64,000 nt of DNA. It comes from Actinopolyspora alba. GTDB taxonomy: Bacteria > Actinomycetota > Actinomycetes > Mycobacteriales > Pseudonocardiaceae. This document shows, in pieces, positions 2,329-29,099 of this stretch; the stretch's first letter is position 1, and every line of letters starts with the position of its first letter. Position numbers and translations under genes: made by a program. The notes beneath the pieces are model-generated. The model was not told where the DNA came from, made no database searches, and was given only the letters and a program-made list of their open reading frames with translations. The stretch lies in NCBI RefSeq assembly GCF_900112765.1, contig NZ_FOMZ01000013.1, positions 1 to 64,000 on the forward strand. The letters are read 5' to 3'.

Positions 2329-3333
2329 CTAGGACAGTTCCCAGGTCTGCCGGGGCAGTCCGGTGAGGTAGTCGGTCAGGTGGCGCAGGGCGGTTTCACT
2401 CGATTCGACGGTGGGAGCGGGTGGGCCGGAGGGAATCCGGCCCAGGGAGGTGGGGAACGGCTCGGCGTTGTCGTAGGCGGCCATGAGGTTGGCGGCACGC
2501 TCGATGACGCTGGGCGCCGCGGAGCTGGAGGAGCGGGAGAGGACGGCGGTGAGCACCGTGGAGGCCACCGCGGGGTCGATCAGCCGGGTGTGGAAGATCG
2601 TCTGGTCGATGTCGCGCAGTTCTTCGTCGTCCTGGGCGCGGGCGGCAGCGGCGTCGATGGCGATCTCGATGACGCGTTCCATCGGCAGGGCGGCCGGGCC
2701 GGCGGTGAGCCAGTGGTCACCGCGCGCGTCGTGGTCGTGGGCGAGGGCGGCCAGCGCGGCGGCGACGGCGTCCCGGGGAACGAGGTCGACACGGGTGCCG
2801 GGCGTGCAGGGCAGGAAGGGGAGCTGGCCGGACAGCGCGAAGCCGAGCAGGTAGTGGAACGCCTGGAGCCGCGGGACGTCGCCGATCACGGTGGAGATGC
2901 GGGCGATGCAGGCGGGCAGGCCGGATTCGCGGACCAGGGTCTCGCCCGTGGCCTTGGTGGCGGCGTACGCGTCGAAGGGGGTGCCGTCGCCCGCGCGGGC
3001 GACGAACGCCGTGGAGCCGTGCACGAGGCGGGCGCCCGCGTCCGCGACGAACCGCAGCACGTGGCCGGTGCCGACGACGTTGACCCGGTGCAGGTGCTCG
3101 TGCGAGGCCGAGAAGTTCACGGCAGCCGCGCAGTGCACGACCACGTCGACCTTGGCCGCGAGCTCGCGGTACTCGGCCGGGTGGAGGCCGAGCCAGGGGC
3201 GGGTCACGTCGCCGCGCACGGACGTGGTGCCGACCGGTTTGTGGTGGGTGAGCGCGATGACCTCCTCGGTGCCGTCCAGCTCGCGCAGCAGGGCGGAGCC
3301 GACGGCCCCGGAGGCTCCGGTGATCAGAATCAT
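2329..3333 (-). CDS. Thioester-reductase-like SDR (NAD-binding 4 type)
   Basis: A 334-residue NAD(P)H-dependent short-chain dehydrogenase of the extended type. It opens with 'MILITGASGAVGSALL', a Rossmann GxxGxxG loop at residues 7-13, and carries 'YAATKATGETLV' with the Y-x3-K pair. The overall pattern is that of thioester reductase domains and the male-sterility/HglB-like group, which reductively release acyl chains from carrier proteins as aldehydes or alcohols. A 3-beta-HSD-like role is the alternative. The ATG at 3333 overlaps the stop of the dehydratase gene (ATGA), so translation is coupled. It is the last gene of the operon and the natural candidate for chain release. There is no own carrier domain. 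Cofactor and product are inferred from family and context only. Confidence 0.7.
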   Translation of the reverse strand: MILITGASGAVGSALLRELDGTEEVIALTHHKPVGTTSVRGDVTRPWLGLHPAEYRELAAKVDVVVHCAAAVNFSASHEHLHRVNVVGTGHVLRFVADAGARLVHGSTAFVARAGDGTPFDAYAATKATGETLVRESGLPACIARISTVIGDVPRLQAFHYLLGFALSGQLPFLPCTPGTRVDLVPRDAVAAALAALAHDHDARGDHWLTAGPAALPMERVIEIAIDAAAARAQDDEELRDIDQTIFHTRLIDPAVASTVLTAVLSRSSSSAAPSVIERAANLMAAYDNAEPFPTSLGRIPSGPPAPTVESSETALRHLTDYLTGLPRQTWELS

Positions 3334-6300
3334 GGGGTCCTCACGGTGGCGGAGTCCTCGTCCCAGCTGACGTCGTCGAGGGTGGTCACCTCGACCGTGC
3401 TCGGGTGGACATCGACGGTTCGGGCGACGTGGTCCTTGACGGCGATGTGGGCCAGCCACTCCGCGGCGCGGGTGTCCGCGGGCAGGCCGTAGACGGCGTT
3501 GACGGTGCCCGGCACCGTGTCGGCCCGCTCCACGTCGCGCCTGCGCAGCACTCCGTCCGAGCCGGTCAGCAGGAGGCGGGAGTCGGGCGTGGCGTCGCGC
3601 AGGTAGGCGCGTCGTTCCGGGCCGGAAACCGCGGTCAGGGCTCCGATCGGGATGTGCATGACCACGGTCCGGAAGGCGACCAGCACGTGCTCCCCGCGGC
3701 ACATCTGGATGTCGATCGCGACGAGGTCGTCCGGCAGCGTGCCGGCGAAACGGGCCTCGACCTCGATCTCGCCGTGGTCGGGCAGGGGCTCGTACACGGT
3801 GAGGTGGCTGAGCCGGTGCGGGAACGCCAGTCGGTCGGAGCCGATCGCCGGGTCCCACCGGTGCAGCGCGTCGTGCGGGATGGTGTGCAGCGCGGCGTCC
3901 AGCAACCCTTGGTGCAGCGCGCCGCGGGGTACCGACCCGCGTTCGGCGTCGAGGACGCCGCTGGCCCCGGTGGAGCCCATCCGCAGCCTCGTCAGGTACT
4001 GGAAGCTCGGTCCGTGGAAGAGGTTCGCGTTCTCGTACGGGTCCGGCGCGTCCGCGAGGTCCGCCAGCGGGGTGAAGCGAGCCGGCCGGGGTGGGGGTTC
4101 GAAACCGACCGTCGCGGTGGCCACCGGGACGAATCTGGAGAGCGAGCCGGCCTCGTGCCACACCGCGAGCCGCGTCTGCTCGTCGGTGCAGGTGGCACGA
4201 AGCCGGACCGGGTCGGCGACGGGCAGCCAGCGCTGCATGCTCAGGTCGCGCAGCACCCGCACCGGGCGTCCGGCGCGGTCCCCGGCGGACCGGGCGAGGA
4301 GCTCGGCGGTCGACATCAGCGGCACGGCGGGGACCGTCCAGGTGGGGCAGTGGTCCGCCAGCCACGTGTCCGCCCTGGGGTCGAGTACGGTGTCGACCGT
4401 GGAGGGCGAGTCCGGTGCGCCGGGCACCACGTGCACCCGCAGGCAGGGCACGTGGTAGATCTTGCGACCGTCCACCCACAGCCAGCCCTCGGCCGTTGCG
4501 TACCCGCCGTCGGAGCTCAGTTCGACGTCCAGCACGTCCAGTTCGACGGTGACGAGCGCGTCGGAGGGCAGGACCTGGCCGCGGTACTTCCACGAGTCGG
4601 GCACGACGGGCTCGAGGCGGAACCCGTCGTCGACACCACGCTGGATCAGGTAGCAGGACAGGAGCTGGCACATCGCCTCGACACCGAGGGAACCGGGCTG
4701 CACCGGGTCGTTGAAGAAGTGCGCTTTGAAGTACCAGGCCTCGGCCCGCACCTCGCACTCGGCGCGTAGCCGTCCGAGTCCGGCCGGGCCGCCGTCGGGC
4801 CAGTAGCCGGTGAGCCGGTCGAGCACCAGCAGCATCTGACCGGGCAGGCGGGCGGAGCGCCCGAAGAAGCGGGCGGGGCGGGATCGCAGGTCGACAACGG
4901 GGTGTTCGCAGGGCTGGGTGAGGCGGGAGCGGTCGTGGTCGGTCACCGGCAGACCGGTCTGGGCCGTCAACTGCTCCGCCGAGGTCAGGGCGAAGACCGT
5001 GGTGCCCTCCAGGGCGGTGACGCCGTCGGCTTCGCAGTGGACCCGGAACGTTTCGATCGTCGTGCCGTCCCAGTGCTCGATGTCGGTGAGCTCGACCGTG
5101 GTGCGCAACGAGCCGACGTCGGGGGGCACCTCGCGCACCGTCGAGAGTCGACCGTCGAGGTTGCGGATCCGCAGCTGCTCGTCGGCCGTGCCGCCGTTCA
5201 TCAGGGCGGTCAGGAAGCCGCAGGGCTGTAGCGCGATCTCCAGCAGCACGGCGACCGGCACCGTCCCGCTCTGCTCGCGGAACCACACGTGCCGGGGCAC
5301 GTCGTACTCGGCGACCAGGCTGCTGCCGGGGCAGAAGTCCCCGTGGGTGACGGACAACTCGGTGACGCGGGTGAGGAACAGGTACGGCGGTCCGGGCAGC
5401 CGCAACGCGTCGTCGCTGGCGCCGGGGAGGATCTCGGCGCGCGGCCCCCAGGCGGCGGTGAGCATCGTGGCGTGGTCGTAGCGGATTCGGTCCGTGCTCG
5501 CTGCGGCCGGATCATCGTGGCCGCGCAGGCCTGCCAGTGCGCTGAGCGGGACCGGATCGCCGGTGCGCTGGACCGCGGGTGGGCCTAGAAGCTTCCAGTG
5601 CGGCAGGGGGGTGTCGGCGACGAGGTGAACGGCGAGCCCTTCGGCGCACAGCACCACCTGCTCGTCGATCGTGACGACCACGTCCGCGTGCGCGGTCGTG
5701 CCGGTGAGCGAGCGCGGGGTGAGGTGGTACCGGGGTGTTCCGCTCGGAGCGTTGAGCAGGACCCGCAGGCGGGTGGACGCCTCCGGCAGTGGTTCGAAGC
5801 GCCAGCCGTCGCGGTGGATCGTGCTCCCGGTCGCGACGAGGTGGAACGCCATCGCTTGGAGGCCGCCTTCGAGCAGCGTGGCGGGCGAGTGCCACGTGGT
5901 CGGCGAGGTGCGGCCGGTCGCGGTGAGCCCGCGGTCGGGATCGAACGCGGTGACCTCGCGCAGCAGGAGGGTGCGTCGTGAGCCGATTCCGGGGCTTCGG
6001 ACGTGGGCGCGCGTGAGCTCCCACTCGGGGCCGGTGAAGCAGTCGGCCGGGCGGCCCTCGGCGAACGCCGTGACCGCGTCGGTGTCGAACGCGGCACCCG
6101 GGTGCTCCGTCGGCAGGGGCACGTCCAAGCCGTCCGAGAGGCTGCCGCGCAACGACAGGTGGCCGTCGACCCCGCCCCGCAGCACCGCTCCGGTGACGGT
6201 CAGCGAGCTGAGCAGCTGATCACCCGGTGCGGGCAGGGCGTGGTGGAAGGTGAGTTCGCCGTCGAGCGCGCCGTCGCGCTGCGGCCACAGCGCCAGCAGT

Positions 6301-6581
6301 TCGTCCAGTACGGCTCCGCCCGTCATGCGGCCGGCCCGGTCGAGGTACCAGCCGTCGAGCTCGACGGTGGCCCGGGCCGTGCGGGCCGGTTCGGTGGTGG
6401 GCTCGACGGCCGTCCCGGTGGTGGGCGGGTGAAAGCTCGCCTGCGTGGCCAGGAAGCGCTCGTGGAGCTCGGTGGCCTGCCGCAACTGTTCGGAGATCAG
6501 CGCCGCGACGCTCCTCGGGGCCGGTGTCGGCTGGTGGGACCGCGGAGGTCGGGGCATGACCTCGAAGTCCTGGTCATCCAT
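3330..6581 (-). CDS. PfaC-type multi-hot-dog dehydratase protein without KS/CLF
   Basis: A 1083-residue protein of tandem hot-dog (FabA/PS-DH) domains that should dehydrate 3-hydroxyacyl-ACP intermediates. An N-terminal domain has the PfaC-like 'TAFAEGRPADCF' element near residue 172. A second has 'HVWFREQSGTVPVAVLLEI' near residue 430. The third carries the FabA-like active site 'AHFFNDPVQPGSLG', with His621 as likely catalytic residue. A C-terminal PS-DH-like part has 'LFHGPSFQYL' near residue 856. The tail 'EWLAHIAVKD...HPSTVEV' (about 1040-1070) recalls the start of the phosphopantetheinyl-transferase-like tails in related synthases, but the rest is missing. Unlike PfaC it has no ketosynthase or chain-length-factor domains. 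The start overlaps the synthase stop by 8 bp and the stop overlaps the SDR start by 4 bp. Confidence 0.75.
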   Translation of the reverse strand: MDDQDFEVMPRPPRSHQPTPAPRSVAALISEQLRQATELHERFLATQASFHPPTTGTAVEPTTEPARTARATVELDGWYLDRAGRMTGGAVLDELLALWPQRDGALDGELTFHHALPAPGDQLLSSLTVTGAVLRGGVDGHLSLRGSLSDGLDVPLPTEHPGAAFDTDAVTAFAEGRPADCFTGPEWELTRAHVRSPGIGSRRTLLLREVTAFDPDRGLTATGRTSPTTWHSPATLLEGGLQAMAFHLVATGSTIHRDGWRFEPLPEASTRLRVLLNAPSGTPRYHLTPRSLTGTTAHADVVVTIDEQVVLCAEGLAVHLVADTPLPHWKLLGPPAVQRTGDPVPLSALAGLRGHDDPAAASTDRIRYDHATMLTAAWGPRAEILPGASDDALRLPGPPYLFLTRVTELSVTHGDFCPGSSLVAEYDVPRHVWFREQSGTVPVAVLLEIALQPCGFLTALMNGGTADEQLRIRNLDGRLSTVREVPPDVGSLRTTVELTDIEHWDGTTIETFRVHCEADGVTALEGTTVFALTSAEQLTAQTGLPVTDHDRSRLTQPCEHPVVDLRSRPARFFGRSARLPGQMLLVLDRLTGYWPDGGPAGLGRLRAECEVRAEAWYFKAHFFNDPVQPGSLGVEAMCQLLSCYLIQRGVDDGFRLEPVVPDSWKYRGQVLPSDALVTVELDVLDVELSSDGGYATAEGWLWVDGRKIYHVPCLRVHVVPGAPDSPSTVDTVLDPRADTWLADHCPTWTVPAVPLMSTAELLARSAGDRAGRPVRVLRDLSMQRWLPVADPVRLRATCTDEQTRLAVWHEAGSLSRFVPVATATVGFEPPPRPARFTPLADLADAPDPYENANLFHGPSFQYLTRLRMGSTGASGVLDAERGSVPRGALHQGLLDAALHTIPHDALHRWDPAIGSDRLAFPHRLSHLTVYEPLPDHGEIEVEARFAGTLPDDLVAIDIQMCRGEHVLVAFRTVVMHIPIGALTAVSGPERRAYLRDATPDSRLLLTGSDGVLRRRDVERADTVPGTVNAVYGLPADTRAAEWLAHIAVKDHVARTVDVHPSTVEVTTLDDVSWDEDSATVRTP

Positions 6582-9500
6582 TGGTGGCCTCCCCGAGTCG
6601 CGTCAGCGTGCGGCCGGCGGTGAGCAGCACGCGCGGGTCGTCGGCAGGGGCGCTCAGTTCCCGGGCGAAGACGCGCGCTCCGTCTCGCAGGGGGATCAGG
6701 TCGACGCCGCCGAGGCGGAACACCTCGGCCAGTTCGGGGGTGACCATGCCGCCTTCCCACGGTCCCCACAGCAGCGAGCGAACCACCGCGTCCGGCCGAG
6801 CGTTCTGTTCGGTGGCGAGCACGTGGTTGAGGGTTTCGTTGGCCATCGCGTAGTCGCACTGCCCGGCGTTGCCGGTCGCGGCGACGACCGAGGAGAACAC
6901 GCACAGCAGTCGCAGCGGGTCCTCGCGGGTGGCGTCCAGCAGTGCTCGCAGGCCGTCGACCTTGGTGCTGAACACGGCCTCGAACTGGCCCTCGGTCTTG
7001 TCCTCCACCCGCTGGTCGTTCAGCACCCCGGCCGCGTGGACGACGCCGGTGATCGGTCCCCACTGCTGCCGGACGTCGGCGAGCGCCGTCCGTACGGCGT
7101 TTTCGTCCCGGACGTCGACGCGCATGTAGCGGGCCTGGTCCAGCCCGTCCACCTCGCGGTCGGAGCCGCGGCCGAGCAGGACGAAGCGTGCGCGGTGCCG
7201 GGATCCGAGCTCTCGCAGGGCCGCCGCCGTGACGGCCCCGGTACCGCCGGACACGACGATCACCGGGTCGGCTTCCCAATCACCGGCCCATTCACCGGAC
7301 GCGGCCTTTTCCGGGGCCTCGGTGGTGTCGAGCGTCCACCGGGTGCCGTCCGCGGCGAGCGCGACGTCGAGGTCCGGGCCTCCGGTGAGCAGTTCGTCGA
7401 CGAGGGCGGTGGCGGTCTCGGTCGCCGAGCGGTTCGCACGCTGGCAGTCGATGGCCTTGACCGCTGCGAGCGGCCATTCCCAGCGGACGGTGCGGGCGAG
7501 TGCGGCCAGACCGCCGATCCAGGGCCGTTGCGCGTCGCGGTGGCCGAATCCGCCTCCGGTGTCCTGCACGGTGACGAATACACCGCCCACGGCGCGCAGC
7601 CGGGGCGCGATCTCCTGTGCGGCTCGGAAGGCGTCCCGTTGAATGGCCAGGGCCTCGTCCGCGGACGCGGTCTCGGCCAGTCCGCCGAGCAATACCAGGC
7701 CGTCGGCCTCCAGCGTGGTGATGTCGGCCGCGGTGCCGACCCGCGCGTGGACGCCGCGCTCGGTGAGCAGTCGTGCGGTCTCCTCGGCGACTCCGGTTCC
7801 GTCGTCGGTGACCAGGACGGTTCCGAGCCCTTGCATGGCGCTGCCCGGTGCGGGCGCGCGCCGCAGCGTCGGCACGTGCCGGTGGATCGTACGGTCTGGG
7901 GCGGTGGTGCCGGGGTGGGCGGGTGTGTTCAGCAGCTCGCGTAAGCGGTCGGCGATCTCACCGAGGGTGCGCAGCGTCAACAGCGGGGTGAGCCGTTCCC
8001 GCTCCATTCCCTCCAGCTGCGGGAACATCGGGCGCAGGGCCGAGAGAACCTGGGCGCGGGTGATCGAGTCCAGGCCGAGGTCGGCCTCCAGCTCCATGTG
8101 CGGTTCCAGGATCTCCACCGGGTAGCCGGTCTTCTCGGCCACGGCGGCCAGCACCTGGGGTTCCAGTTCCTCGATGCCGCGTGACGGCACGGGTTCCGGG
8201 GCCGTGGCGGGCACCGGGGCGACGGAGACGGCGGGTGATTCGGAGGTCGCAGGGGGTCCGGGGGAAGCGGGTGGCTCGGCCGGTGCGGGTGGTGGGGTGG
8301 TGGTCCGGAAGGTCGGCGAGGGAGCGGAGGGCTGTCCGAGGCCGTGGCCCGAGGCCGGGTCCAGCGAGGTGAGCGCGTCGATCGACTTCTCGGCCATGCT
8401 CAGGTACGCCGCGTGGGCGCGGGCGACCTCCTGCTGGGCTTCGGCGACCGCGCGCAGCGTCCCATCGTCCTGGCTGCCGGATCCGGTCCCGGACAGCGCA
8501 GGGGCCGGTGTGCTCGGAGCGGATTCCGAGGTCGGCGGGTAGGACCCGCCGTGATTGCCTCCGTTGATCATGATGGGCATCGCCGGTCGTGCGGGCTCGG
8601 GCTCCTCCGGGCCGTGCCACAGCCCGGCGAAGTCGAGCGGGACGCCGAGCGCGGTGAGCTGTCCGAGCGCGTCGAGCAGCCCGGTCACCCCGTTGGAGCT
8701 CGCGCGGTCCAGGGAGATCGCATGGCCGTCGGAGAGGTTCTCCTTGACCAGGCTGGTCAACGCGCCTCCCGGGCCCACTTCCAGGAAGATCCGCACCCCG
8801 TCGGCGTGCATCGCGTGCACCATGTCCGCGAACCGGACCGGTGAGGCGACGTGGTCGGCGATCGCCTGTCGGATCTCGGTCGGCCGCACCGGGTGCACGG
8901 CTGCCGCGGCGTTGCCGTACACGTTCAGCAGCGGTGCGCGCACCGTCTCCGCGGACAGGAAGTCCCGCAGCGGTTCGGTCGCGGGGGCGACGAGGGGGCT
9001 GTGGAAGGCAGCCGAGGTGTCGAGCGTCCGTGCGGTCATTCCGGCCGCGGTGGCGTGCTTGCGCACCAGCGCGCCCGCCTCGGCGGTCGCGGCCACCACG
9101 ACCTGGCGCGGGCCGTTGTGGTTGGCGATCCAGGCTTGCTCGAGGTTCTGCTGCTCGAGGAGGCTGGTCACCTCGTCCACGCCCGCGTCCAGGGCGATCA
9201 TGACGCCGGAGCCCTCCCGCATCAGCTCGCCCCGCCGGGCGGCGAGCCGCATCAACGTGTCCTCGTCGAACGCGCGTGCCGCGTGCAGCCCCACCAGCTC
9301 GCCGAAGCTGTGCCCGGCCACGCAGTCCGGCCGCACCCCCGCGGTTTCCAGCACGTTCAGCAGCGCGAGGCTGTGCGCGGCGATGGCGGGTTGCGCGACG
9401 CCGGTGTCGGTGAGCGCGTGCTGCTGCGCCTGCCGCTCGGCGTCGGTGAACACCGGTGGCGGGAAGACCAGCGGGGAGATCTCGTGCCGGTCCCACACCG

Positions 9501-11262
9501 CGTGGGCCTGGGGGAAGTGCATCGCCAGGTCGGCCCCCATGCCGACGTACTGGGCTCCCTGGCCGGGGAAGAGGAACGCTATCCGACCCGGAGTGCGCCC
9601 GACACCGTAGTGCAGACCGGAGGGCGTCGAGAACGGCTTCGTGCCGACCAGTCCCCGGGCCTGCTCCAGCTTCTGCTCGAGGTCCTCCGCGGACGAGGCG
9701 ACCACCGCCAGCCGGTGCTCCCGCGTGTGCTGGAAGGCGTTCTGGGAGCGCCGCGCGACCGCCGTGAGGCTTCCCGACAGGTCGAGTGAGAACAGCTCCC
9801 GCGGCGTCGCGGCGGACAGCACCACCAGTTCTCCCGGCCGTGCTTCGCAGCGCACCGCGGGGCGGGCTCCCGCCGTTTCGTCGGTGTACTCCTCCAGCGT
9901 GACGTGGAAGTTCGAGCCGCCGAAGCCGAAGCTGGACACCGAGGCCCGCCTGGGGTGCTCGGTCGTGTTGATCCACGGCCGTGCCCGCGTGTTGAGGTAG
10001 AGAGGGCTGTTCTCCAGGTTCAGCGCGGGGTTCGGACGGTCGACCTTGATCGTCGGCGGTAGCACCTTGTGCCGCAGCGCCAGGGCGGCCTTGAGCAGGC
10101 CCGCGGCGCCGGCGGCGGCCTTGGTGTGTCCGATCTGGGATTTGACGGACCCGAGCGCGCACCACTGGCGGTCCGTCCGCCCGCTCGCCTCGAACACCGA
10201 GTGCAGGGCGGCTGTTTCGGTGGCGTCGCCGGGGGCGGTGCCGGTGCCGTGCGCCTCGACCAGACCGACCGTGTCCGGTCCGTAGCCTGCGGTCTCGTAC
10301 GCCCGGCGCAGCGCCCGCGCCTGCCCGGTGTCCAGCGGTGCGTACACCGAGGTGCCGCTGCCGTCCGAGGAGGAACCGATGCCGCGGATGACGGCGTGTA
10401 CCCGGTCACCGTCGCGTTCGGCGTCGGCGAGTCGTTTCAGGGCGAACAGACCGAGCCCCTCGCCCAGCATGGTGCCGTCCGCGTGCTCGTCGAACGGGCG
10501 GCAGTCGCCGGTGGGCGACAGGGCCGGGGTCTTGCTGAAGCACTGGAAGGTCATCGCGTCGTTGAGCGTGTCGACCCCGCCGGTGATCACCATGTCGGAG
10601 CGGCCGAGCAGCAGGTCGTCGACCGAGACCGACAGGGCGGCCAGCGAGCTCGCGCAGGCGGAGTCGACGGTGAAGTTGGTGCCGTGCAGGTCGAAGCGGT
10701 TCGCGATCCGCCCGGCGACCACGTTGCTCAGCATGCCGGGGAACGTCGCTTCCTGCCACGGTGGCGAGTACTCGAGGATCCGGTCGCAGACGGCGTCGGC
10801 GTCCGCTTCGGACAGTCCGCTGTCCAGCAGTGTCCGGCGCCACTGCGGGCGTCCGGACCGCATCGCCATCTCGCCGAGCAGCTGCAGGGAGGCGCAGCCG
10901 AGGAACACGCTGACCCGTTCGCCGTCGATCCGGCCGAGCCCGGCGTCGGAGAGCCCGGTCAGCAGGCGTTCCGCGGCGACCAGGGCCAGCAGTTGGGCGG
11001 TGTCGGTGGCGGGCAGGTTGCGGGGCGGCACCCCCAGGGCCATCGGGTCGAACTCGACCTCGGGCAGGAAGGCCCCGCGGCGGGCGTAGGTCTTGTCCTG
11101 CGCGTCCGGGTCGGGGTCGTAGAAGTCCTCGATCAGCCAGCGGTCGGCCGGCACGTCGGTCATGAGGTCGCGTCCTTCGAGGACGTTGCGCCAGAAGGCG
11201 TCCACGTCCGGCGCGCCCGGCATGATCGCGCTGACGCCGACGATCGCGATCCGGTGGTCCAT
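6574..11262 (-). CDS. PUFA-synthase-like megasynthase, KS-AT-ACP-KR
   Basis: A 1562-residue iterative type I synthase in the order ketosynthase, acyltransferase, acyl carrier protein, ketoreductase, the same order as PfaA but with one ACP instead of several. The KS has Cys203 in '[12 protein letters not shown]', His338 in '[11 protein letters not shown]' and His379 in '[11 protein letters not shown]'. The AT has '[12 protein letters not shown]', Ser652 in 'GHSFGE' and 'AAFHSPLV' (His754). The ACP has Ser1066 in '[12 protein letters not shown]', after a Pro/Ala-rich linker at about 975-1028. The KR has 'GGTGAV' at 1339-1344, Ser1458, Tyr1471 and Asn1475. The start is set at the ATG of '[12 protein letters not shown]', the canonical KS beginning, 17 bp after the PfaD stop; earlier in-frame starts overlap PfaD. 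All catalytic residues are present, so the enzyme should be active. Product length is not predictable. Confidence 0.88.
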
Positions 11263-11279
11263 GTTCGTTCTGCCGTTTC

Positions 11280-12803
11280 TCAAACCAGTGGGCGGGGGCG
11301 GAAGTCGAAGGCATCGGAGGGGAGGCGGACCCCGAGGGCGCGCAGCTGGTGCACGCGGGTGAGCACGGCGGCTCCCCGGAGCAGGTTGCGGGCGATCTGC
11401 GTGACCGTGCGTCCACCGGGTTCGGCCAGGAAGCTGCCCGCGGTCCAGGTGTTGAACGCTCCGGCTGCGGGGCCGCACCACAGCTGGTAGTCGCTGCGGC
11501 GGCCGGGCGTGCCGTCGACCGCCCAGGTGACCGAATTACCCAGGTACCAGCGGAAGACCAGCGCCATCCTGTGCCTGGGGTCCGCCTGCGCCCGGGTGAT
11601 CTCGCTCGGGCAGCGCTGCGCCCAGTACTCCTCGGTGCGTTGCCACACCTCGTCCAGGCCGGCCCCGAGGACCTCGCGCTCCAACGAGTCCCTGGCCTCG
11701 GCGGGGAGCGAGTCCAGCGACGGGTGTTCGAGGTAAAGCTGGTACAGCCGGGCCGCCCGGCCGGCGAACATGGTGCCGCGGCGCAGCACCTGGACCTTGG
11801 CTCCGAGCTCGAACATGTCACCCGCCGGCGCCATCGCCACGTCCGCCACCCCGGCCTGCGCGAGCATGGCCTTCGCCTCGTCGCTGACCGCGGCCTCGTG
11901 CGACATCTGGTTCACCGAGCCGGTGAGCACGTAGGCCGCGCCGAGGGCGAACGCCGCGGACACCGCGGCCGGGTCGCCGAGTCCGCCCGCCGCGCCCACC
12001 CGCACTCCCGGGCTCTTCCGACGCGCCAGGGACAGGACCGCGGGCAGGATCGACACCAGCGGTCTTCCGTCGGTGTGCCCACCGCTGTCCGCCTCGACGG
12101 TGATGTCGTCCGCCACCGGTATCCGGCTGACCAGACGGCCCTCCTCCTCGGTGATCTCGCCGGTGTCCACGAGCCGACGAACCAGCCCGGGAGGGGGCGG
12201 CGACATGAACAGCTCGGCCGTCTCCGGGCGTGAGACCTTGGCGAACAGCGCGGTCTTCCGAATGATCCGGCCCGTCGCGTCGGTGCGCAGTCCGGAGGCC
12301 GCGCAGCGCACCACCGCGGGAGTGATGTCCAGGAACGCCGACAGGGAGATCTTCGGCACTCCGGCGCGTAACAGGCGCGCCGCGACCGCGTCCTCCATGG
12401 CCGCGTCGTCGGGGTGGTGGATGAGGTTGACGCCCCAGTTCCGTCGCCCGGCGAGACGGGTCCGCAGTCGTTCCAGTTCCCGGTCGAGCCGTTCGAGGCC
12501 GAGCCCTGCCGCCCCGAAGAAGGCCAGCATCTCCGCCCGCGCCATGGGCTCGACCAGTTCGACGCCGGTGATGCCGTGCGCCATCTCGCCCGCGACGTAG
12601 GGGAACCGCACGTCGTGCGTCTCGGTGAAGCTCTGGTCGCCCAGCCACTCCGGGTACAAGGCCGGCACCGTGCCGACGGCTCCCGGAATCGGCCGCTCCG
12701 AGAGTCCCAGTGCGCCGTCCCGCTCGTGTGCCACCAAGTGCGCCGGCTTCGTCACCCGCTGGGCGAGTTCGACGAGGCCGGCGCCGTCGAACACTCCTGT
12801 CAC
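11280..12803 (-). CDS. pfaD: PfaD-type trans-acting enoyl reductase
   Basis: A 507-residue FMN-dependent TIM-barrel oxidoreductase of the PfaD/2-nitropropane-dioxygenase group, which supplies enoyl-ACP reduction in trans to PUFA synthases and trans-AT PKSs. Recognisable stretches are 'GEMAHGITGVELVEPMA' near the start, 'NWGVNLIHHP', 'DDITVEADSGGHTDGRPL' and 'VGAAGGLGDPAAVSAAFALG' (FMN-phosphate region), followed by 'YVLTGSVNQMS'. The C-terminal extension 'VFRWYLGNSVTWAVDGTP' is characteristic of PfaD and absent from FabK. Start is GTG at 12803, four bases after the EF-hand stop. With KS-AT-ACP-KR and the dehydratase protein it completes the full beta-reduction cycle, and selective use of this reductase would decide where double bonds remain. 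Family call is firm. Confidence 0.88.
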   Translation of the reverse strand: MTGVFDGAGLVELAQRVTKPAHLVAHERDGALGLSERPIPGAVGTVPALYPEWLGDQSFTETHDVRFPYVAGEMAHGITGVELVEPMARAEMLAFFGAAGLGLERLDRELERLRTRLAGRRNWGVNLIHHPDDAAMEDAVAARLLRAGVPKISLSAFLDITPAVVRCAASGLRTDATGRIIRKTALFAKVSRPETAELFMSPPPPGLVRRLVDTGEITEEEGRLVSRIPVADDITVEADSGGHTDGRPLVSILPAVLSLARRKSPGVRVGAAGGLGDPAAVSAAFALGAAYVLTGSVNQMSHEAAVSDEAKAMLAQAGVADVAMAPAGDMFELGAKVQVLRRGTMFAGRAARLYQLYLEHPSLDSLPAEARDSLEREVLGAGLDEVWQRTEEYWAQRCPSEITRAQADPRHRMALVFRWYLGNSVTWAVDGTPGRRSDYQLWCGPAAGAFNTWTAGSFLAEPGGRTVTQIARNLLRGAAVLTRVHQLRALGVRLPSDAFDFRPRPLV

Positions 12804-12807
12804 GGCG

Positions 12808-13539
12808 TCAGATGCGCCCGAGCGCCAGGTTGCCCGGTGCCTGCGGGTCGATGCTGATGATGAAGTCGGTGACCGCCATCAGGATCTCGGGGTAGCCGAG
12901 GTAGCCGTTCTCGTCGGAGTCCATCACCGACCACGCGTGCTCGGCGTGCTCCCGCTTCACGCGCAGCACCTCCGTGACGAGCCGGAGTCCGTCGTCCCGG
13001 GTGACCCGTCCGTCGTTGTCCTCGTCGGCCATCGCGAAAGCCAGGTTCGTGACCACGCCGATGTACTGCAGCGTCTTGTCCGGCGTCTCCGCCACGCTGT
13101 TCGCCATCACCGTGACGAACTGCTCCCTGGCCAGCCGTTCCGGGTCCGGTACCCACGCGGGTTTGACCACCAGCGCGTGCCAGATCCGGTTCACCGTGGC
13201 TTCCAGCTGCTGCGCCCGCGGTGAGTCCTCGGTGTGGCCGGTCAGCCGTGCGAGGCGGTGCGCGAACTGCATCGTGTCGGCGGGCGTCACCGCGCCGTCG
13301 CCGTCGTCGTCCAGCACGTCGAACATCCACAGCTGCTTGCGCCGCAGGTACGAGTCCTGGTTCGCGGCCAGTCGCTCCGCCGCGGCGATGGTGGTCGCCG
13401 CGTCCGGTTTGGACTCGGTGGTTGCCTCGCCCGCCGTGGCCATTCCGGACATGGCCCCGGCCGCCACCTCCGCGGTATCGCGCAGTGCCGACCCGCGCGT
13501 CACCTCTGTCGTTTCGTCGTCCTTCGGTGCTTCAGCCAC
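12808..13539 (-). CDS. Calerythrin-like EF-hand Ca2+-binding protein
   Basis: A 243-residue cytosolic protein (no signal peptide) with three readable EF-hand loops: DDDGDGAVTPAD at 77-88, DEDNDGRVTRDD at 172-183 and DSDENGYLGYPE at 207-218. A degenerate fourth hand is likely around residue 140 ('REQFVTVM'). That three-plus-one arrangement matches calerythrin of Saccharopolyspora. Loops 1 and 2 end in Asp rather than Glu at position 12, which may lower affinity or allow Mg2+. A low-complexity, Ala/Thr/Glu-rich N-terminal extension of about 55 residues precedes the fold. It is the promoter-proximal gene, four bases from pfaD, so it is very probably co-expressed with the synthase. GTG start at 13539; upstream GAAGGG is a weak ribosome site. 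Its job in the pathway is unknown; calcium sensing or scaffolding is inference. Confidence 0.85.
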   Translation of the reverse strand: MAEAPKDDETTEVTRGSALRDTAEVAAGAMSGMATAGEATTESKPDAATTIAAAERLAANQDSYLRRKQLWMFDVLDDDGDGAVTPADTMQFAHRLARLTGHTEDSPRAQQLEATVNRIWHALVVKPAWVPDPERLAREQFVTVMANSVAETPDKTLQYIGVVTNLAFAMADEDNDGRVTRDDGLRLVTEVLRVKREHAEHAWSVMDSDENGYLGYPEILMAVTDFIISIDPQAPGNLALGRI

Positions 13540-13919
13540 CCCGAGCCCTTCGAATTCACGACGTGATCGCTGTCGGAAACGTCGTTCGTGATCTTGCGTC
13601 CGGGACGCTAGCAGCTCTGCGCGCTATTGATCTTGAAAATTCTCGATCCGGCCATGTGAAAATGAAAACTCTTGCGAGGGGTTGATGTGTTTGGTACCGA
13701 GAGGCGTTCGTGGGATACGCGTGCACCGGCGTCGTGTCGAAATCGTCGAACCTCGTCCTTTCGGACTCTGTCGCACATGGATGATCGGCGGGCTGGTGTG
13801 ATCGCGGTCGGTGGGTGCCCGGGTGATGTGGAGGCGGGGCGGAGTGATTCCGAGGGGTGCGCTTCCAGCACGGAGCACGGCGAGGTGAACCCGGCAGGCT
13901 GCGCGCCGACGAGGGCTAC
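13540..13919. other. Upstream region of the lipid operon
   Basis: This is a non-coding stretch before the EF-hand start and should hold the operon promoter on the minus strand. Composition is less GC-rich around 13615-13690. No convincing -10/-35 pair or palindrome could be fixed by eye, and small frames here resemble nothing known. Confidence 0.35.
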
Positions 13920-15873: not shown

Positions 15874-16434
15874 TCACGGGCGTTCGCGGCTGTGCACCAG
15901 CTCCATCACCTCGGTCGCGAAGCCTTTGATCGTCTCCAGTTCGCGGCGGCCCCATGAGTGGGTCTCCGGTGCGACGGTGCAGACCGTGCCCAGTGTGAGG
16001 CCGGTGTGGTCGATGAGCGGGGCTCCCATGTAGGACCGGATCCCGATCTGATCCACCACGGGATTGCTGGTGAACCGTGGGTAGGAGCAGACATCGCCGA
16101 GGACGAGTGGCAGTCCGCGGGCCACCACGTGCGGGCAGAACCCGTGATCTTTCGGCATCTCCCGTCCCGGTGACACGGCCGTTTGTGCCGCTTCCATCGC
16201 GGCACTGGTCTGGGACTCGGCTCGCGTGTACAGCCCGGTGAAGTACTGCCGCTGGCCGCTGATGATGTTCACCATCGCGTAGGGGGCGCCCGCCGCGTCG
16301 GCGAGCCTGCGCGCGAGGGCATCGAACTGCGGGTCGGGTTCTTCCCGGATGCCGAGTTCTCGCAACCGTTCCATCCGGTGCTGCACGTTCGGATCCGGTG
16401 GGGTGCCTACGAGGCGCATATTGCTGGTGGACAT
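15874..16434 (-). CDS. GAF-domain protein, fifth gene of conservon operon
   Basis: A 186-residue soluble protein that is almost entirely one GAF domain. Typical stretches are 'FDALARRLADAAGAPYAMVN', then 'DHGFCPHVV' with conserved Cys and His, and 'YMGAPLIDHTGLTLGTVCTV'. GAF domains bind small ligands or form redox-sensitive sites. It follows cvnD by 16 bp on the same strand, so it is the distal gene of the conservon. Of the two consecutive ATGs, the second (16434) is preferred because GGGAG then sits six bases away. In many conservons the fifth position is a cytochrome P450 or another effector, so this protein may be the local signal input or output. The ligand is unknown. Confidence 0.8.
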   Translation of the reverse strand: MSTSNMRLVGTPPDPNVQHRMERLRELGIREEPDPQFDALARRLADAAGAPYAMVNIISGQRQYFTGLYTRAESQTSAAMEAAQTAVSPGREMPKDHGFCPHVVARGLPLVLGDVCSYPRFTSNPVVDQIGIRSYMGAPLIDHTGLTLGTVCTVAPETHSWGRRELETIKGFATEVMELVHSRERP

Positions 16435-16450
16435 CATGTTCTCCCTGGGG

Positions 16451-17038
16451 TCAGCCGATGGGTTGCGGTGAGGACGTCGTCGATACGTGTTCGAGCAGCG
16501 TGATGAGTGTTCGCGTCGCGGCGTGGGAGTCGCGGGCATCGCACATCACCAGCGGAACGCTCAGGGGCAGCGCGAGAGCGTTCCGCACCTCGTCGGGGGT
16601 GTAGTACATCGCGTTGTCGAATTCGTTGACGGCGACCAGGAAGTAGATCCCTCGTTGCTCGAAGAATTCGATCGCTCCGAAACAGTCCTGAAGTCGACGC
16701 GTGTCGGCCAGCACTATGGCACCGACGGTGCCGCGGGACAGCTCGTCCCACATGAACCAGAAGCGATCCTGGCCCGGAGTGCCGAACAGATACAACGCGA
16801 TGTTGTCGTCGGGGAAGGTGATGCGGCCGAAATCCATGGCCACCGTGGTGGTGGACTTTCCTTCCACACCAGCCAGACTGTCCGTGTCGACACTGGCCGT
16901 GGTGAGGTGCTCCTCGGTGTTCAGCGGCTCGATCTCACTGGACGCGCCGACGAAGGTGGTTTTCCCGGCGCCGAATCCGCCCGCGATGAGAATTTTGAGC
17001 TGCCAGGGGAATGCGTCAGAGTCGGCTTCTAAGCCCAT
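16451..17038 (-). CDS. cvnD: Conservon small GTPase CvnD
   Basis: A 195-residue Ras-like GTP-binding protein of the CvnD/MglA-like group. P-loop 'GGFGAGKT' is at 20-27, the switch II/G3 motif 'LFGTPGQDRF' is at about 83-92 and the G4-like motif 'NEFD' is at 137-140. The usual aspartate of DxxG is replaced by the TPGQ form typical of this family. CvnD is thought to receive signals from the membrane-associated CvnA/B/C complex, in analogy to a eukaryotic-style G-protein switch. Start ATG at 17038 overlaps cvnC by 23 bp. Confidence 0.92.
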   Translation of the reverse strand: MGLEADSDAFPWQLKILIAGGFGAGKTTFVGASSEIEPLNTEEHLTTASVDTDSLAGVEGKSTTTVAMDFGRITFPDDNIALYLFGTPGQDRFWFMWDELSRGTVGAIVLADTRRLQDCFGAIEFFEQRGIYFLVAVNEFDNAMYYTPDEVRNALALPLSVPLVMCDARDSHAATRTLITLLEHVSTTSSPQPIG

Positions 17039-17372
17039 GGAGTACCTTCTCGATCAGGTCCGGGGTGACGTCAGCGGTCGCGGTTGGATCGTGAGTGGTT
17101 ACCGCACCGGTGCCGATGAGATCGGAAAGCAGAATTTTGACGACCACCGCGGGTTGCCGCAAGTGTCCTGCTACCTCGGCGACTGTGGTCGGGGAGCGGC
17201 ACAGCCGCAACGTCTGGGAGTGCTCGGGTCCCAGCACGTCGTGAGACACCTGCCCCGTGCTGCGCACCATGGACAGCAGGTCCAGTGTCGCGCTGGGGTG
17301 GGTGCGCCCGTTGGTGACCAGGTAGGGCCGTATCCCCTGCTCGCGTGGTGGGTGACCGTCGAATGCGCTCAT
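17016..17372 (-). CDS. cvnC: Conservon protein CvnC (DUF742)
   Basis: A 118-residue DUF742 protein. The family signature is visible as 'IRPYLVTNGRTHPSATLDLL' and the C-terminal 'QPAVVVKILLSDLIGTGAV', which resembles a winged-helix fold. In characterised conservons it associates with CvnA, CvnB and CvnD at the membrane. The ATG overlaps the cvnB stop by four bases and the 3' end runs 23 bp into cvnD, so the three genes are tightly coupled. Confidence 0.92.
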   Translation of the reverse strand: MSAFDGHPPREQGIRPYLVTNGRTHPSATLDLLSMVRSTGQVSHDVLGPEHSQTLRLCRSPTTVAEVAGHLRQPAVVVKILLSDLIGTGAVTTHDPTATADVTPDLIEKVLHGLRSRL

Positions 17373-17785
17373 ACCGGCCGACTCTCCTCCGCCGGGGAAC
17401 GTCGTGACGGCGTGGCCAGACTGCTGGGCACTTTCCTGCCGAGCTGCTGCATCTCGTAGCTGAGAACCCCGGCGTTGACCGTGCTGTCGGCCAGGACAGC
17501 GAGGATACTGCCGGCACTGGCGGCCGTGATCGCCAGGATACTGCCGTCACCGAGTTCGGCATTGGCTTGGCGCATCCCGTGTCCACCCCCGAAGCATTTG
17601 CCCACTTCCTGGACCAGCGAGCACAAGGGGCTGGCAAGGGAAGCCAGCCGGTCCGCGTCATCGCGCTCCAGACCGTAGTAGAACCGCGGAATCGCATCGG
17701 TGGACAGTAAGAGGGCGCTTCGGGTGTGGGGAACCTGGTTGACCAGGTTCGCGAGTAGCCAGGTCAGATCCTGTGGCTGGGTCAC
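17369..17785 (-). CDS. cvnB: Conservon roadblock/LC7 protein CvnB
   Basis: A 138-residue roadblock/LC7-fold protein, the usual partner of Ras-like GTPases in bacteria. It starts 'MTQPQDLTWLLANLVNQVPH', then has 'SALLLSTDAI', the central 'GGGHGMRQANAELGDGSILA' and a hydrophobic end of the sheet 'GSILAVLADSTVNAG'. It lies 20 bp after cvnA. A role in regulating the CvnD nucleotide state is known for the family and inferred here. Confidence 0.92.
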   Translation of the reverse strand: MTQPQDLTWLLANLVNQVPHTRSALLLSTDAIPRFYYGLERDDADRLASLASPLCSLVQEVGKCFGGGHGMRQANAELGDGSILAITAASAGSILAVLADSTVNAGVLSYEMQQLGRKVPSSLATPSRRSPAEESRPV

Positions 17786-17805
17786 GGTCGACTCCTTGGG
17801 GCGTT

Positions 17806-19308
17806 TCAGGCGGACGTCGAAGGGTTTCGCCGATCTTCTGACGAAGCTGACTGGTCGGACTCGGACTGGCTGAAGGCGCTCAACAACCCCGTGTTGTGGC
17901 CGGGGATCGGGGTGACGCTCTCCTGCCGTGTCCGCAACTGTTCCGGAAGGTTGTCCGTGCCGGGCCTGCGTTGCGGAAGCTGTGACGCGTCACCTCGACG
18001 GCGCTCCCCGCCCGTGGGTGAGCTCGTCGTCTCCGCCGATGGGGGAGCGGTCCACGCCGGCGGTGACGTCGACGCCGGTTCAGAAGTGGGTGGTGCCGGT
18101 GTGTGTCTTTCGGGCGAAGGTTCGGCAGCGGGCGCTGCTACGTCGCCGGTCCATTGCATCCGACTGGGAGAGTGAGAACGGGAAACCGGCGGTGGTGGCC
18201 CGCCGGAAGGTGGCGGCGGCGTGGGCGTCAGCTCTTGGGCAGCGGGACCGGGCTGCGCGGGTTCCGAGGGTGAGGTGGTGAGCAAGCTGTCCGGCAGCAG
18301 GACGACCGCTTCCATCCCTCCGTAGATGCTGCTCTGCAGGCGGACCCTGATGTTGTAGCGCTGCGCGAGGACTCGGACCACCGACAACCCGATCCGTCCG
18401 TCCGCGAGGAGCTCGTCGAGGTCGACCCGATCGGCGTCCTCGAGCAGGCGGTTGTACCGGTGGATCTCCTCGCTAGTCATACCAAGACCACGGTCCTGGA
18501 TCTCGATGGCCACGCCGGCCGTGACGGTTTCGGTCCGCACCACCACAGGAGTGTTGTTGCTGGAGAATTGGGTGGCGTTTTCCAGCAGCTCCGCCAACAG
18601 GTGAATCACCTCAGCGGTGGCGGGCCCTTTCAGCATTCCCTCCACCGCGGTCATCTTCACTCGGGAGTAGTGCTCGATCTCAGCCACGGCGGAGCGCAAC
18701 ACTGTCTGGAGGCTCACGTCCTCCTGTGTTTGTCGCTGCGGCGCTTTACCACCGAGTATGGCCAGACTTTCCGCCTGTCGGCGAGACAGGTTGACGAGGT
18801 GGTCCACGCGGAACAGGCGCGCGAGAAGATCGGGGTCTTCCACCTGGTGTTCGGCTTCGTCGATTTCGGTGATCGCTCGGTCGGCCATGGCCTCCAGGCC
18901 CCGTGCCAACTTGGCGAACGCGGCTTGGAGCGCGTCGTTGCCGTAGGAGGGGGAGGAGAGCCCGTCGGCTGCGGAGCCCGTGTCAGCAGCGGCGGCAGCG
19001 TCAACTCTGACCGCCTCGTGCTTTCGTCGGAGTTGTCGGAGACCGTTTCTGGTCCGCTTGACCGCGATGAAACCGACCAGCCCGGCTGACGCGATCGCCA
19101 AAGCACAAAGGGCGAGTGCGGCTCCCAGGAACGAACGATCGACGGTCACCAGCATAGCCGTGACAGCCCCCAGCACGAGGAGCGACGGCACCACCGGCAG
19201 CAGGGTAAGCCACAGGATGCGGTTCCGTAGATCCGCGGCAGCTTGATCCGAACAGCCCTCGGGGCCATCGTCCTCAAGACAGCCGGCAGTAGGTAACAGT
19301 GCAGACAT
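17806..19308 (-). CDS. cvnA: Conservon sensor kinase-like protein CvnA (short form)
   Basis: A 500-residue membrane histidine-kinase-like protein. Two transmembrane helices at about 31-54 and 60-83 are joined by only a few residues, so there is almost no extracellular sensor loop. Many CvnA proteins are larger and carry a nitrate/nitrite-type outer domain. A helical dimerisation region with His170 ('FRVDHLVNLSRRQAESL') precedes an HATPase with N-box 'ELLENATQFSS' (Asn244) and G1 box 'DRGLGM' (272-277). From about residue 330 on, the protein is a disordered Pro/Ser/Thr-rich tail. The ATG at 19308 follows GAGGA with five bases between; a TTG one codon earlier is less likely. It heads the cvnABCD-GAF operon. 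Confidence 0.88.
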   Translation of the reverse strand: MSALLPTAGCLEDDGPEGCSDQAAADLRNRILWLTLLPVVPSLLVLGAVTAMLVTVDRSFLGAALALCALAIASAGLVGFIAVKRTRNGLRQLRRKHEAVRVDAAAAADTGSAADGLSSPSYGNDALQAAFAKLARGLEAMADRAITEIDEAEHQVEDPDLLARLFRVDHLVNLSRRQAESLAILGGKAPQRQTQEDVSLQTVLRSAVAEIEHYSRVKMTAVEGMLKGPATAEVIHLLAELLENATQFSSNNTPVVVRTETVTAGVAIEIQDRGLGMTSEEIHRYNRLLEDADRVDLDELLADGRIGLSVVRVLAQRYNIRVRLQSSIYGGMEAVVLLPDSLLTTSPSEPAQPGPAAQELTPTPPPPSGGPPPPVSRSHSPSRMQWTGDVAAPAAEPSPERHTPAPPTSEPASTSPPAWTAPPSAETTSSPTGGERRRGDASQLPQRRPGTDNLPEQLRTRQESVTPIPGHNTGLLSAFSQSESDQSASSEDRRNPSTSA

Positions 19309-19866
19309 CAAGGTCCTCTAAGCAGCGATGTACAACGGACGGGTGGTACGGCCTCATATTTGAATCGATGAACGTGGCATCTCCGGCTCACCCTGTTCCA
19401 CGTATCCGCACACGGTGCCACCGACCATGTCCGCCACTCCTCGCAGCTCCATTGCATGGATTATCCTGTGTGATCTTGCGAAAGCAGATCGTACCTCAGC
19501 CAGGTGTACGTACTCGGATCCTCCGCGAGGAGCAATCACGAACCTGTGACCAGGTAGGACAGGGTGCACATCCGAGGGAAGAGGATTCACCCGGTGTAGT
19601 TACCTAAGGCAGTGTCTCATTTGGTGAGTTTTTCGTAGCGGGTGAGGGCAGCGGCGCGGGCGGCAGAAGCCGGGCGATGTCGTTGCTGTTGTTCCCGGTG
19701 AGGATCCCCTGTCACGGGAGAGCCCGCGCCATTGGTGATCGGGGGTGCTCGTGTCCGTTTTTCCCGATACACCGGCCTTGGCGCTGTCCGGAGCACCACT
19801 TTTTGGTCTGGAATTGTGCGGAATCCGCGAGCGTCCACGACCAGTCGAAGGGCCCGGCCGCGGTTA
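19309..19866. other. Intergenic between conservon and IS element
   Basis: The left part should carry the conservon promoter (minus strand). Around 19610-19660 a minus-strand frame ends 'AAALTRYEKLTK' followed by a stop, which resembles the last residues of some IS transposases. With so few residues it cannot be assigned. No intact gene was seen. Confidence 0.35.
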
Positions 19867-25796: not shown

Positions 25797-25883
25797 CTTC
25801 GGCTGTTCGGGTCGAGATTCGTGATGGTGGCCGGTTTCCGGGGCTATCCGTAAGAAGTGACGAGCGGGAAGGAAACCGTGCTC

Positions 25884-28800: not shown

Positions 28801-29099
28801 CGCTCACTCACGTCGAGGGGCACTACGACGGCCCGCGTGGCCGGATCAGCAGCTCCTGGCGCCTGAAAGGCCAGGGCAGTCGGGATTTCGAGCTGGACGT
28901 CGTCATCCCGGCCAACTCGGTCGGCGAGATCCACGTTCCGACGATCCGCCCGCAGGCGGTGTGGCTCAACGGCCGTCATGTCCGCGCTTCCAAGGAAGTG
29001 AAGTTCGAGTCCTATACGGACGGCTGTGCCGTCTACTCGGTCGGACCGGGTAGCTACGGCTTCAGCTCACAACCGCACCAGGGTGGAGGTCACCGATGA
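25884..29099 (+). CDS. Tat-exported GH78 alpha-L-rhamnosidase
   Basis: A 1071-residue secreted hydrolase that removes terminal alpha-L-rhamnose from plant polysaccharides or glycosides. The twin-arginine signal 'SRRKFLQVTAAG' is at residues 12-23. Then come a fibronectin-like N-domain, the carbohydrate-binding N-terminal rhamnosidase domain ('ARLYLAGLGAYDATLNGRRV'), the (alpha/alpha)6 catalytic domain with 'FTDCPNREKLGWLAD', whose Glu is the expected general acid region, and a C-terminal beta-domain with 'VPEHWHAPENSSSLNH' before it. An insertion of about 100 residues rich in Gly/Thr/Asp (roughly 270-370) splits the N-terminal domain. ATG 25884 is used, with GGAAGGAAA ten bases upstream; GTG 25878 is possible. 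Its stop overlaps the GH106 start (ATGA). Confidence 0.87.
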   Translation: MAEMSSDSDGVSRRKFLQVTAAGAAGLAVSGTTVGLGVEVAEAAAAGRGAVRGLSVAGRFDHPLGVDNRTPLLAWRLERGTQHAYRIRAASSTAKLPDPDLWDTGWVRSGTSTGVAYAGKPLGARQQVVWQVRITDAHGTVSEWSAPSAWELGLLDRSDWSPAVWIEHPDRENIDPLPVFARGFTVDDGRTVDRARLYLAGLGAYDATLNGRRVTDAVHLPGDSNPQRSVEAGTYDVTELLESGPNVLGVQLGNGIFNAVEVTNPAVGRTEAYNKFTSEIVRPTTLATAAGAGDTSIKVADVDGFDVGATVNIDTGNGGTLLESRVITKVGTAGADGSGIGFTEPLAHGHDAGGTVTHSGTANETRTAISPRLLARLEVGYADGSIDTVVTDRQWRTALGPSVTDSWYAGTDYDARREQPGWDRPGADLSAAATRRNGEPTGWIAAGIAPPPNLATDLAWRQGDPVEIVDTVAPVAVTEPKPGTWVFDFGQNFSALFDLRLDASVPAGTVIKMRPAESLHGDGTVDASSMGSDEHIYDTYTTAGASQGERWRPQFVYHGFQYVQLTGLPSGHRATSGMLTALPIRASMDVAGDVSTSSDMVNRIHRMSTYSIASNTQSIFTDCPNREKLGWLADVLHSIQAIDRNFEMSAYLPHMQRVMREAQLASGPSAGMVPAHAPEFPVFGGGYRDDINWGSSVIVLPWWLWQHHGDTATMAEYYPDMVGYHDFVRTVQAGADGGTNLVRGGLGDWVAADDRTPKLLTGTYAYYRMTDKLARMAAALGKNADARRYSDLAADIKAEFNARFFNDTLRAYTNEGNGGTVGTQADDALALDAGLVPDGQEKHVLDDLVRRIHTYHPSGGGPHLSGGTISLGPTFRALTDGGRADVVWDVLHETTRPSYGAFLRPSEMNPHGMTTVPEHWHAPENSSSLNHMILLQIDEWFSTGLAGIRRAPGSVAYGKVVVKPRLVGTDEHPLTHVEGHYDGPRGRISSSWRLKGQGSRDFELDVVIPANSVGEIHVPTIRPQAVWLNGRHVRASKEVKFESYTDGCAVYSVGPGSYGFSSQPHQGGGHR

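Follow-up and report, generated by a model that had tools for sequence, protein, structure and literature searches.

Classical Pfa synthases of polyunsaturated fatty acids (PUFAs) are large systems with duplicated components, i.e. two ketosynthases (KS), two acyltransferases (AT) and two types of dehydratase (DH), whose respective tasks are still being sorted out. Their clusters comprise a KS-CLF, a PfaB-type AT and tandem acyl carrier proteins (ACP). According to a review, the PfaA KS elongates C2, C4, C6, C10, C16 and C18 and the KS-CLF C10 and C20, and the polyketide synthase (PKS)-type DH leads to saturation by the enoyl reductase and the FabA-type DH to cis double bonds, in a scheme called speculated (PMC9702510); PfaB was reported as a terminal acyltransferase determining the PUFA product, with off-loading called a potential role (PMC12895367). 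Here, we describe a compact operon of five genes from Actinopolyspora alba. It occupies positions 2329-13539 (minus strand) of the first 64 kb of contig 35, a stretch of 64,000 nucleotides beginning at contig base 1 of a 5.24 Mb genome (hereafter, the window). We consider it likely that these genes encode a self-contained, minimal PUFA-type synthase with one KS, whose chain would be released reductively as an aldehyde or alcohol.

Type L secondary lipid synthases (Shulse & Allen 2011, PMC3098273), e.g. that of S. coelicolor, begin with PfaD at the 5' end, followed by a PfaA-like protein of KS, AT, ACP and ketoreductase (KR) domains, and have a fused pfaBC of KS-CLF-DH2-AT architecture; the operon was set against this published description. 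PfaD followed by KS-AT-ACP-KR is also found in the operon, where only an EF-hand gene precedes pfaD, and loci of Type L layout have PfaD, KS and DH sequences related to those of the operon. Unlike Type L, the operon is devoid of KS-CLF and of that AT, ends with a thioester reductase (TR) gene and begins with the EF-hand gene. Zeamine and fabclavine clusters (Zmn10-14, FclC-G) share with it a Pfa-like synthase, PfaD and a stand-alone TR, and zeamine additionally a single-ACP PfaA and the absence of PfaB, but they keep KS-CLF, contain an aminotransferase and an extra KR and are part of hybrids of PKS and nonribosomal peptide synthetase (NRPS); an aminotransferase domain and the TR act with the Pfa-like enzymes in zeamine (PMC3547906; fabclavine, PMC9113149). 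Heterocyst glycolipid clusters (hgl, Type F) also combine a Pfa-related synthase with a TR, listed together with a CLF (PMC11804610), and their lipid products are of alcohol type, but these cyanobacterial clusters contain a phosphopantetheinyl transferase (PPTase), a glycosyltransferase and an ABC exporter as well. A TR beside a Pfa-like synthase is therefore already known from zeamine/fabclavine and from heterocyst glycolipids.

Kibdelosporangium-type loci (L041, L044 and L048) resemble the operon by a DH-FabA-DH protein and by the absence of KS-CLF after PfaA in the sequence examined, but their PfaB-type AT is fused to the DH protein and they have neither an EF-hand gene nor a TR at or near the locus. 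A Pfa-like cluster without KS-CLF was reported earlier in Ottowia thiooxydans (PMC13291983), which, along with seven other loci of our sample (see below), suggests that KS-CLF loss is not confined to the compact loci. No characterised cluster with these five genes was recognised among the papers listed in searches of the open-licence literature, MIBiG and subscription journals being outside that scope.

Gene content and domain architecture

The first-pass annotation of this DNA had described five co-directional genes, headed by an EF-hand gene, and Pfam and NCBIfam searches together with a motif scan bore this out: the order from 5' to 3' is EF-hand protein, PfaD, KS-AT-ACP-KR synthase, dehydratase protein and short-chain dehydrogenase/reductase (SDR). 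The genes are tightly packed, but overlaps, announced for most of them, occur at only two of the four junctions (4 nt between SDR and DH, 8 nt between DH and KS), the other two being gaps of 4 and 17 nt. Two gene starts were chosen by us, i.e. a likely ATG at 11262 for the synthase (the mechanical open reading frame (ORF) begins at 11481) and position 3333 for the SDR (mechanical ORF from 5286). As A. righensis carries, about 0.5 kb downstream of the SDR, the same convergent MFS gene as the window, the loss of an operon gene at the contig edge appears unlikely.

The resemblance to PUFA synthases, also proposed earlier, was confirmed with curated cut-offs, since the PfaA-like synthase (6574-11262, 1562 aa) reached 1082 bits against 1010 required for TIGR02813 and the PfaD-type enoyl reductase (11280-12803, 507 aa) 577 bits against 449 for TIGR02814; the operon thus has the PfaA-like KS-MAT-ACP-KR protein and the PfaD of a classical Pfa synthase. 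Pfam and the motif scan delimited in the synthase the sole KS of the operon (aa 1-460, 9883-11262; motifs DSACASS, EAHGTGT and KSxxGH), an AT (8713-9600; GHSFG), a single ACP (7933-8172; attachment motif LGLDSI) and a KR (6643-7272; GGTG and S..Y). Judging by its position, the AT would be specific for malonyl. Neither a second KS, a CLF nor a PfaB-type AT was found by Pfam and sequence comparison of the operon genes, in agreement with the first-pass annotation, which had noted that the second KS/CLF and the acyltransferase of PfaB/PfaC were missing. Pfam detected one AT in the whole operon, and one ACP is present instead of the tandem ACPs of classical PUFA synthases. The operon therefore falls outside the definition of a classical Pfa synthase, as it does outside that of Type L, and its gene content also sets it apart from zeamine. 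Activation of the ACP would occur in trans, through the PptT/Npt-like PPTase of the genome, the only PF01648 match found there, which scored under both NCBIfam 'exception' cut-offs.

The dehydratase protein (3330-6581, 1083 aa; Pfam FabA and PS-DH/PKS_DH_N) is the counterpart of PfaC/PfaBC reduced to its DH part, KS-CLF and AT being absent, and shares 40-68 % identity, depending on the part considered, with the DH part of the L041 AT-DH protein. It contains a FabA-type dehydratase/isomerase domain (aa 566-722, 4416-4886; Pfam FabA 142 bits) with the motif HFFNDPVQPG, then a PKS-type dehydratase domain and C-terminal part (aa 723-1083, 3333-4415; Pfam, motif scan) with DHCP and LLDAA. The PKS-type part is kept in all seven compact loci found among relatives; no match to the FabA-type domain was obtained in the Streptomyces rimosus and Saccharothrix versions (L035/L036), where the dehydratase protein consists of the PKS-type part only.

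The first gene encodes a calerythrin-like EF-hand protein (12808-13539, 243 aa; Pfam EF-hand_7; phmmer E-value of 5.9e-12 with calerythrin 1nya), composed of an N-terminal tail of about 65 residues and three EF-type loops (DDDGDGAVTPAD, DEDNDGRVTRDD and DSDENGYLGYPE). Among the 70 loci with at least 1.7 kb of sequence before PfaD, this gene was found in six, namely all six compact loci with upstream sequence, and was absent from the other 64. No other operon for a lipid synthase is known to us whose first gene encodes a calcium-binding protein, and none of the papers listed in a search of the open-licence literature on this combination carried the word EF-hand. We can only guess that the protein is a structural or calcium-sensing part of the synthase complex. 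Saccharopolyspora sp. HNM0986 carries a second EF-hand gene (L033:707-1456), about 48 % identical, just upstream and on the opposite strand. In the leader of the operon (13540-13640), a stretch located about 45-62 nt upstream of the EF-hand gene is similar as far afield as S. noursei, where it reads GAGATCACAAACGA, and is possibly a promoter or operator.

Distribution and phylogeny of the compact loci

The named relatives at 95-97 % PfaD identity were Actinopolyspora righensis, A. xinjiangensis and A. mortivallis. The dehydratase gene of the operon was present in seven of ten Actinopolyspora genomes (90-100 % identity), a count that includes the named loci (L030, L031 and L032), and the other six of these seven genomes have the five genes in identical order. 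Saccharopolyspora sp. HNM0986 and Streptomyces noursei also have all five genes in the same order, at 79-86 % and 71-82 % identity, respectively. S. rimosus has the EF-hand, PfaD and synthase genes, a shortened dehydratase gene and the SDR gene (33-68 %); in Saccharothrix sp. ST-888, the four genes from PfaD to the SDR were found (48-63 %), on a contig that begins at PfaD. Gene order, whose comparison in related genomes had been advised in the first-pass annotation, is thus kept in congeners, Saccharopolyspora and S. noursei, ruling out its loss in all relatives. Apart from the EF-hand paralogue in L033, blastp of called ORFs matched no gene flanking L033 (whose flanks are short), L034 or L035 to the neighbours of the operon in the first 30 kb of the window. 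Since flanks differ outside the genus, the five genes seem to travel as a unit. No plasmid copy was detected with the dehydratase protein as query, at the sensitivity of a search in which none of 39 records had one place covering 80 % of the query and all were under 60 % identity. The operon is real, conserved and probably functional.

Relatives were sampled as the best 80 of 234 PfaD relatives in named genomes, i.e. the nearest kin and not a random set. A tree of PfaD and the PfaA KS was built with 80 rows, of which 78 came from the 80 loci and the other two were the window and L024, after L065 and L098 had been dropped for short or missing domains and L025 and L026 left out; it was inferred by a quick method with SH-aLRT support, midpoint rooting and no bootstrap. 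The eight compact rows form one side of a single branch (SH-aLRT 99). A side observation in this tree concerns the locus of Rhodococcus rhodnii NRRL B-16535 (L069), which is nearly identical to that of Kibdelosporangium aridum (L048), with end branches of about 0.006, in a genome given as 12.4 Mb; this suggests that the locus was transferred recently or that the assembly is mixed or mislabelled.

Locus classes were counted over 59 loci, namely those in which a KR is followed by at least 3.2 kb of sequence, with the PfaB-type AT of L041 and the second KS and CLF of L040 as references and limits of 80 bits for KS-CLF and 100 bits for PfaB-type AT. Both were found in 42 loci. Seven had the PfaB-type AT and no KS-CLF above 80 bits in the sequence examined, and seven, which are the compact loci, had a downstream TR and neither of the two. 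KS-CLF alone was found in two loci, and none of the three components in one (L082, Frankia). L087, with a weak CLF-like stretch (34 % identity) under 80 bits, was counted as devoid of KS-CLF and is labelled as full in the tree. Since the sequence of the 49 loci with PfaB-type AT ends in or soon past that gene, the 49 genomes were searched with a TR profile, which gave 630 bits at the operon of S. noursei used as control. The profile matched at 100 bits or more in 10 of them, and none of the 10 matches lay within 25 kb of the PfaD locus by coordinates, distances being taken as a worst case, i.e. with each match treated as if on the locus contig. In the two strongest (Saccharopolyspora elongata and Streptomyces sp. 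CT34), the TR is paired with an aminotransferase and no PfaD is nearby. Thus, a TR of the compact type and a PfaB-type AT were not found together in one cluster, either in the 59 loci or in the 49 genome searches.

Chain release and proposed function

The last gene encodes a stand-alone, thioester-reductase-like SDR (2329-3333, 334 aa), our candidate chain-release enzyme, which matched Pfam NAD_binding_4 at 97 bits. Its NAD-binding glycine motif and catalytic S/T-Y-K (S107, Y123 and K127) are invariant in all nine aligned SDR sequences. When its profile was compared with the PDB, the nine best matches were PKS, NRPS or carboxylic acid reductase (CAR) enzymes with terminal reductase (R) domains, MxaA first. 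The predicted SDR structure was ranked with VIA-align, and a plant fatty acyl reductase and several R domains came on top, so that structural ranks lean towards R domains without being clear-cut. The suggestion of the first-pass annotation that this SDR could release the chain reductively is in keeping with the profile matches and the invariant S-Y-K.

The five proteins may be arranged in the following scheme. The AT would load malonate onto the single ACP, and the sole KS would condense iteratively, with the KR reducing. The FabA-type and PKS-type dehydratases would dehydrate, the former perhaps also isomerising to a cis double bond, and PfaD would reduce selected enoyl intermediates. The stand-alone TR would finally take the chain off the ACP as an aldehyde, a second reduction leading to the alcohol. 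Domains, motifs, clade, gene order and the separate occurrence of downstream TR and PfaB-type AT are the sequence-based parts of this scheme; the release chemistry, the iteration, the direction of change and any calcium role are what we infer. The operon probably derives from an actinobacterial PfaD-PfaA-PfaBC cluster; KS-CLF and PfaB-type AT are missing from it, and a TR and an EF-hand protein are present. A change of release chemistry is proposed because the PfaB-type AT is missing where the TR is present, given the role reported for PfaB. Without KS-CLF, the chain is expected to be shorter or under different control, and would probably not reach the length of classical PUFAs. The polyene listed among possible products in the first-pass annotation received no specific support, since PfaD and both DH types are present, which makes a mixed chain with partial reduction equally likely.

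A more specific version, which we put forward only tentatively and hold to be doubtful, is that KS-CLF loss limits elongation, that the TR captures the chain to give a partly cis-unsaturated aldehyde or alcohol of medium length (about C8-C12) and that the EF-hand protein is calcium-responsive within the complex. If true, a saturated or trans counterpart would be expected from S. rimosus and Saccharothrix, whose version lacks the FabA-type dehydratase. Having a single KS, AT and ACP along with another kind of release enzyme, the operon amounts to a natural experiment; its five genes (about 11 kb) are few enough for reconstitution, by which the contributions of KS-CLF and PfaB could be tested directly, and it might provide a small enzyme system for making unusual fatty aldehydes or alcohols.

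Several observations weigh against reductive release by a minimal synthase. The SDR scored 87 bits with TIGR01746, under the cut-off of 213, as did its relatives in L034, L035 and L024 (97-104 bits), and sugar epimerases and dehydratases, i.e. extended SDRs, rank about 3 Z units or less behind R domains in the structural comparison. The FabA-type site has Glu at the second active-site position of FabA, where FabA has Asp in the alignment. As the compact loci form one clade, the mutual exclusion of TR and PfaB-type AT counts as one evolutionary event. In addition, a different NAD_binding_4 reductase (homologous to that of L040) was found by tblastn just before PfaD in 32 of the 80 loci (31 of the 70 with at least 1.7 kb), mainly in Streptomyces. 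It occurs beside PfaB-type AT in 27 of these 32 loci, out of 49 loci that have this AT, and scores about 60-85 bits against the TR profile, so that the mere presence of a reductase of the broad family is compatible with PfaB. The L040 protein, the only example scanned with Pfam and NCBIfam, has 489 aa and gave 145 bits with TIGR01746, also under the cut-off. We rejected this upstream reductase as an equivalent of the compact TR, since it lies on the opposite side of PfaD, is longer and coexists with PfaB-type AT in 27 of 32 loci; it was absent from all seven compact loci. From these sequences, reductive product handling may be common in actinobacterial Pfa-like systems, by means of two different reductases.

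The sub-threshold TIGR01746 score, the still weaker matches to the RmlD and OleD models and the overlap of fold ranks with sugar epimerases would suit a tailoring ketoreductase or epimerase, the chain then leaving as an acid or passing to another acceptor. We regard such a role of the SDR as improbable: its nine best profile matches are enzymes with terminal reductase domains, the operon already has a KR, and the SDR is found where the PfaB-type AT is missing. Another possibility, equally short of probable in our view, accepts release by the TR but has an aminotransferase from outside the operon convert the aldehyde into a lipid amine, along the lines proposed for zeamine (PMC3547906). TR relatives in other loci often adjoin aminotransferases, which makes an amine end possible and also counts against an aldehyde or alcohol as the final product. 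In G032 (L024), a TR 40 % identical to that of the operon adjoins a class III aminotransferase gene beside PfaD and KS-AT, an arrangement recalling zeamine, and five of eight further TR relatives viewed in context (L144, L145, L146, L149 and L150; 34-39 % identity, no PfaD nearby) adjoin class III aminotransferases, possibly as aldehyde-to-amine pairs. Pfam detected no aminotransferase among the operon genes, however, and no flanking gene is common to the compact loci outside the genus. A TR search of 394 class members returned seven genomes at E ≤ 1e-45, the window's own included; in the other six the TR is 33-39 % alike and PfaD/KS was not found in the 20 kb around each, so that this search found the compact operon in one of 394.

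It is also conceivable, if unlikely, that the operon is not self-sufficient and relies in trans on gene clusters elsewhere in the genome for KS-CLF, the second condensing unit, and perhaps for a transferase that releases the chain. Two other multidomain proteins of the window's genome (L016 and L017) have a KS followed by a KS-like stretch, and G007 (A. mortivallis) has a second Pfa cluster with KS-CLF. Against this, L016 and L017 carry their own AT and KR, an L016-type protein was found in two of the ten genus genomes (E ≤ 1e-150) versus seven for the operon's dehydratase gene, and a Pfa-type KS-CLF query of 860 residues was matched past residue 527, well into the CLF, only in G007 among the ten. 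Both synthases (L016, G000:C32:184001-200000; L017, G000:C22:148001-164000) consist of KS, second KS-like stretch and KR with a separate neighbouring AT gene; they are 39 % identical to each other, and a third such synthase is present in G003. Finally, the missing parts of classical PUFA synthases could mean that the operon is a decaying, non-functional remnant of a larger PUFA cluster. This is very improbable in view of the open frames and motifs, the presence in seven of ten congeners, the same order in three genera and a dN/dS below 0.5 in 21 of 24 comparisons; the three exceptions, which do count against the favoured reading, are EF-hand versus L030 (1.36, with very few changes and a dS of 0.016), EF-hand versus L031 (0.68) and DH versus L030 (0.67). 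A self-contained, one-KS synthase with reductive release remains the reading that we favour.

Other genes of the window

Upstream of the operon, the window contains consecutive genes for GAF, ATP-binding and histidine-kinase-like ATPase proteins (15874-19311), parts of which are kept upstream of the operon in three of six congener loci. We take this row of genes to have the make-up of an actinobacterial conservon. Two adjoining alpha-L-rhamnosidase genes (25857-32056) belong to different families, i.e. Bac_rhamnosid and Glyco_hydro_106, and a gene of the HSP90 family is located at 43185-45086.

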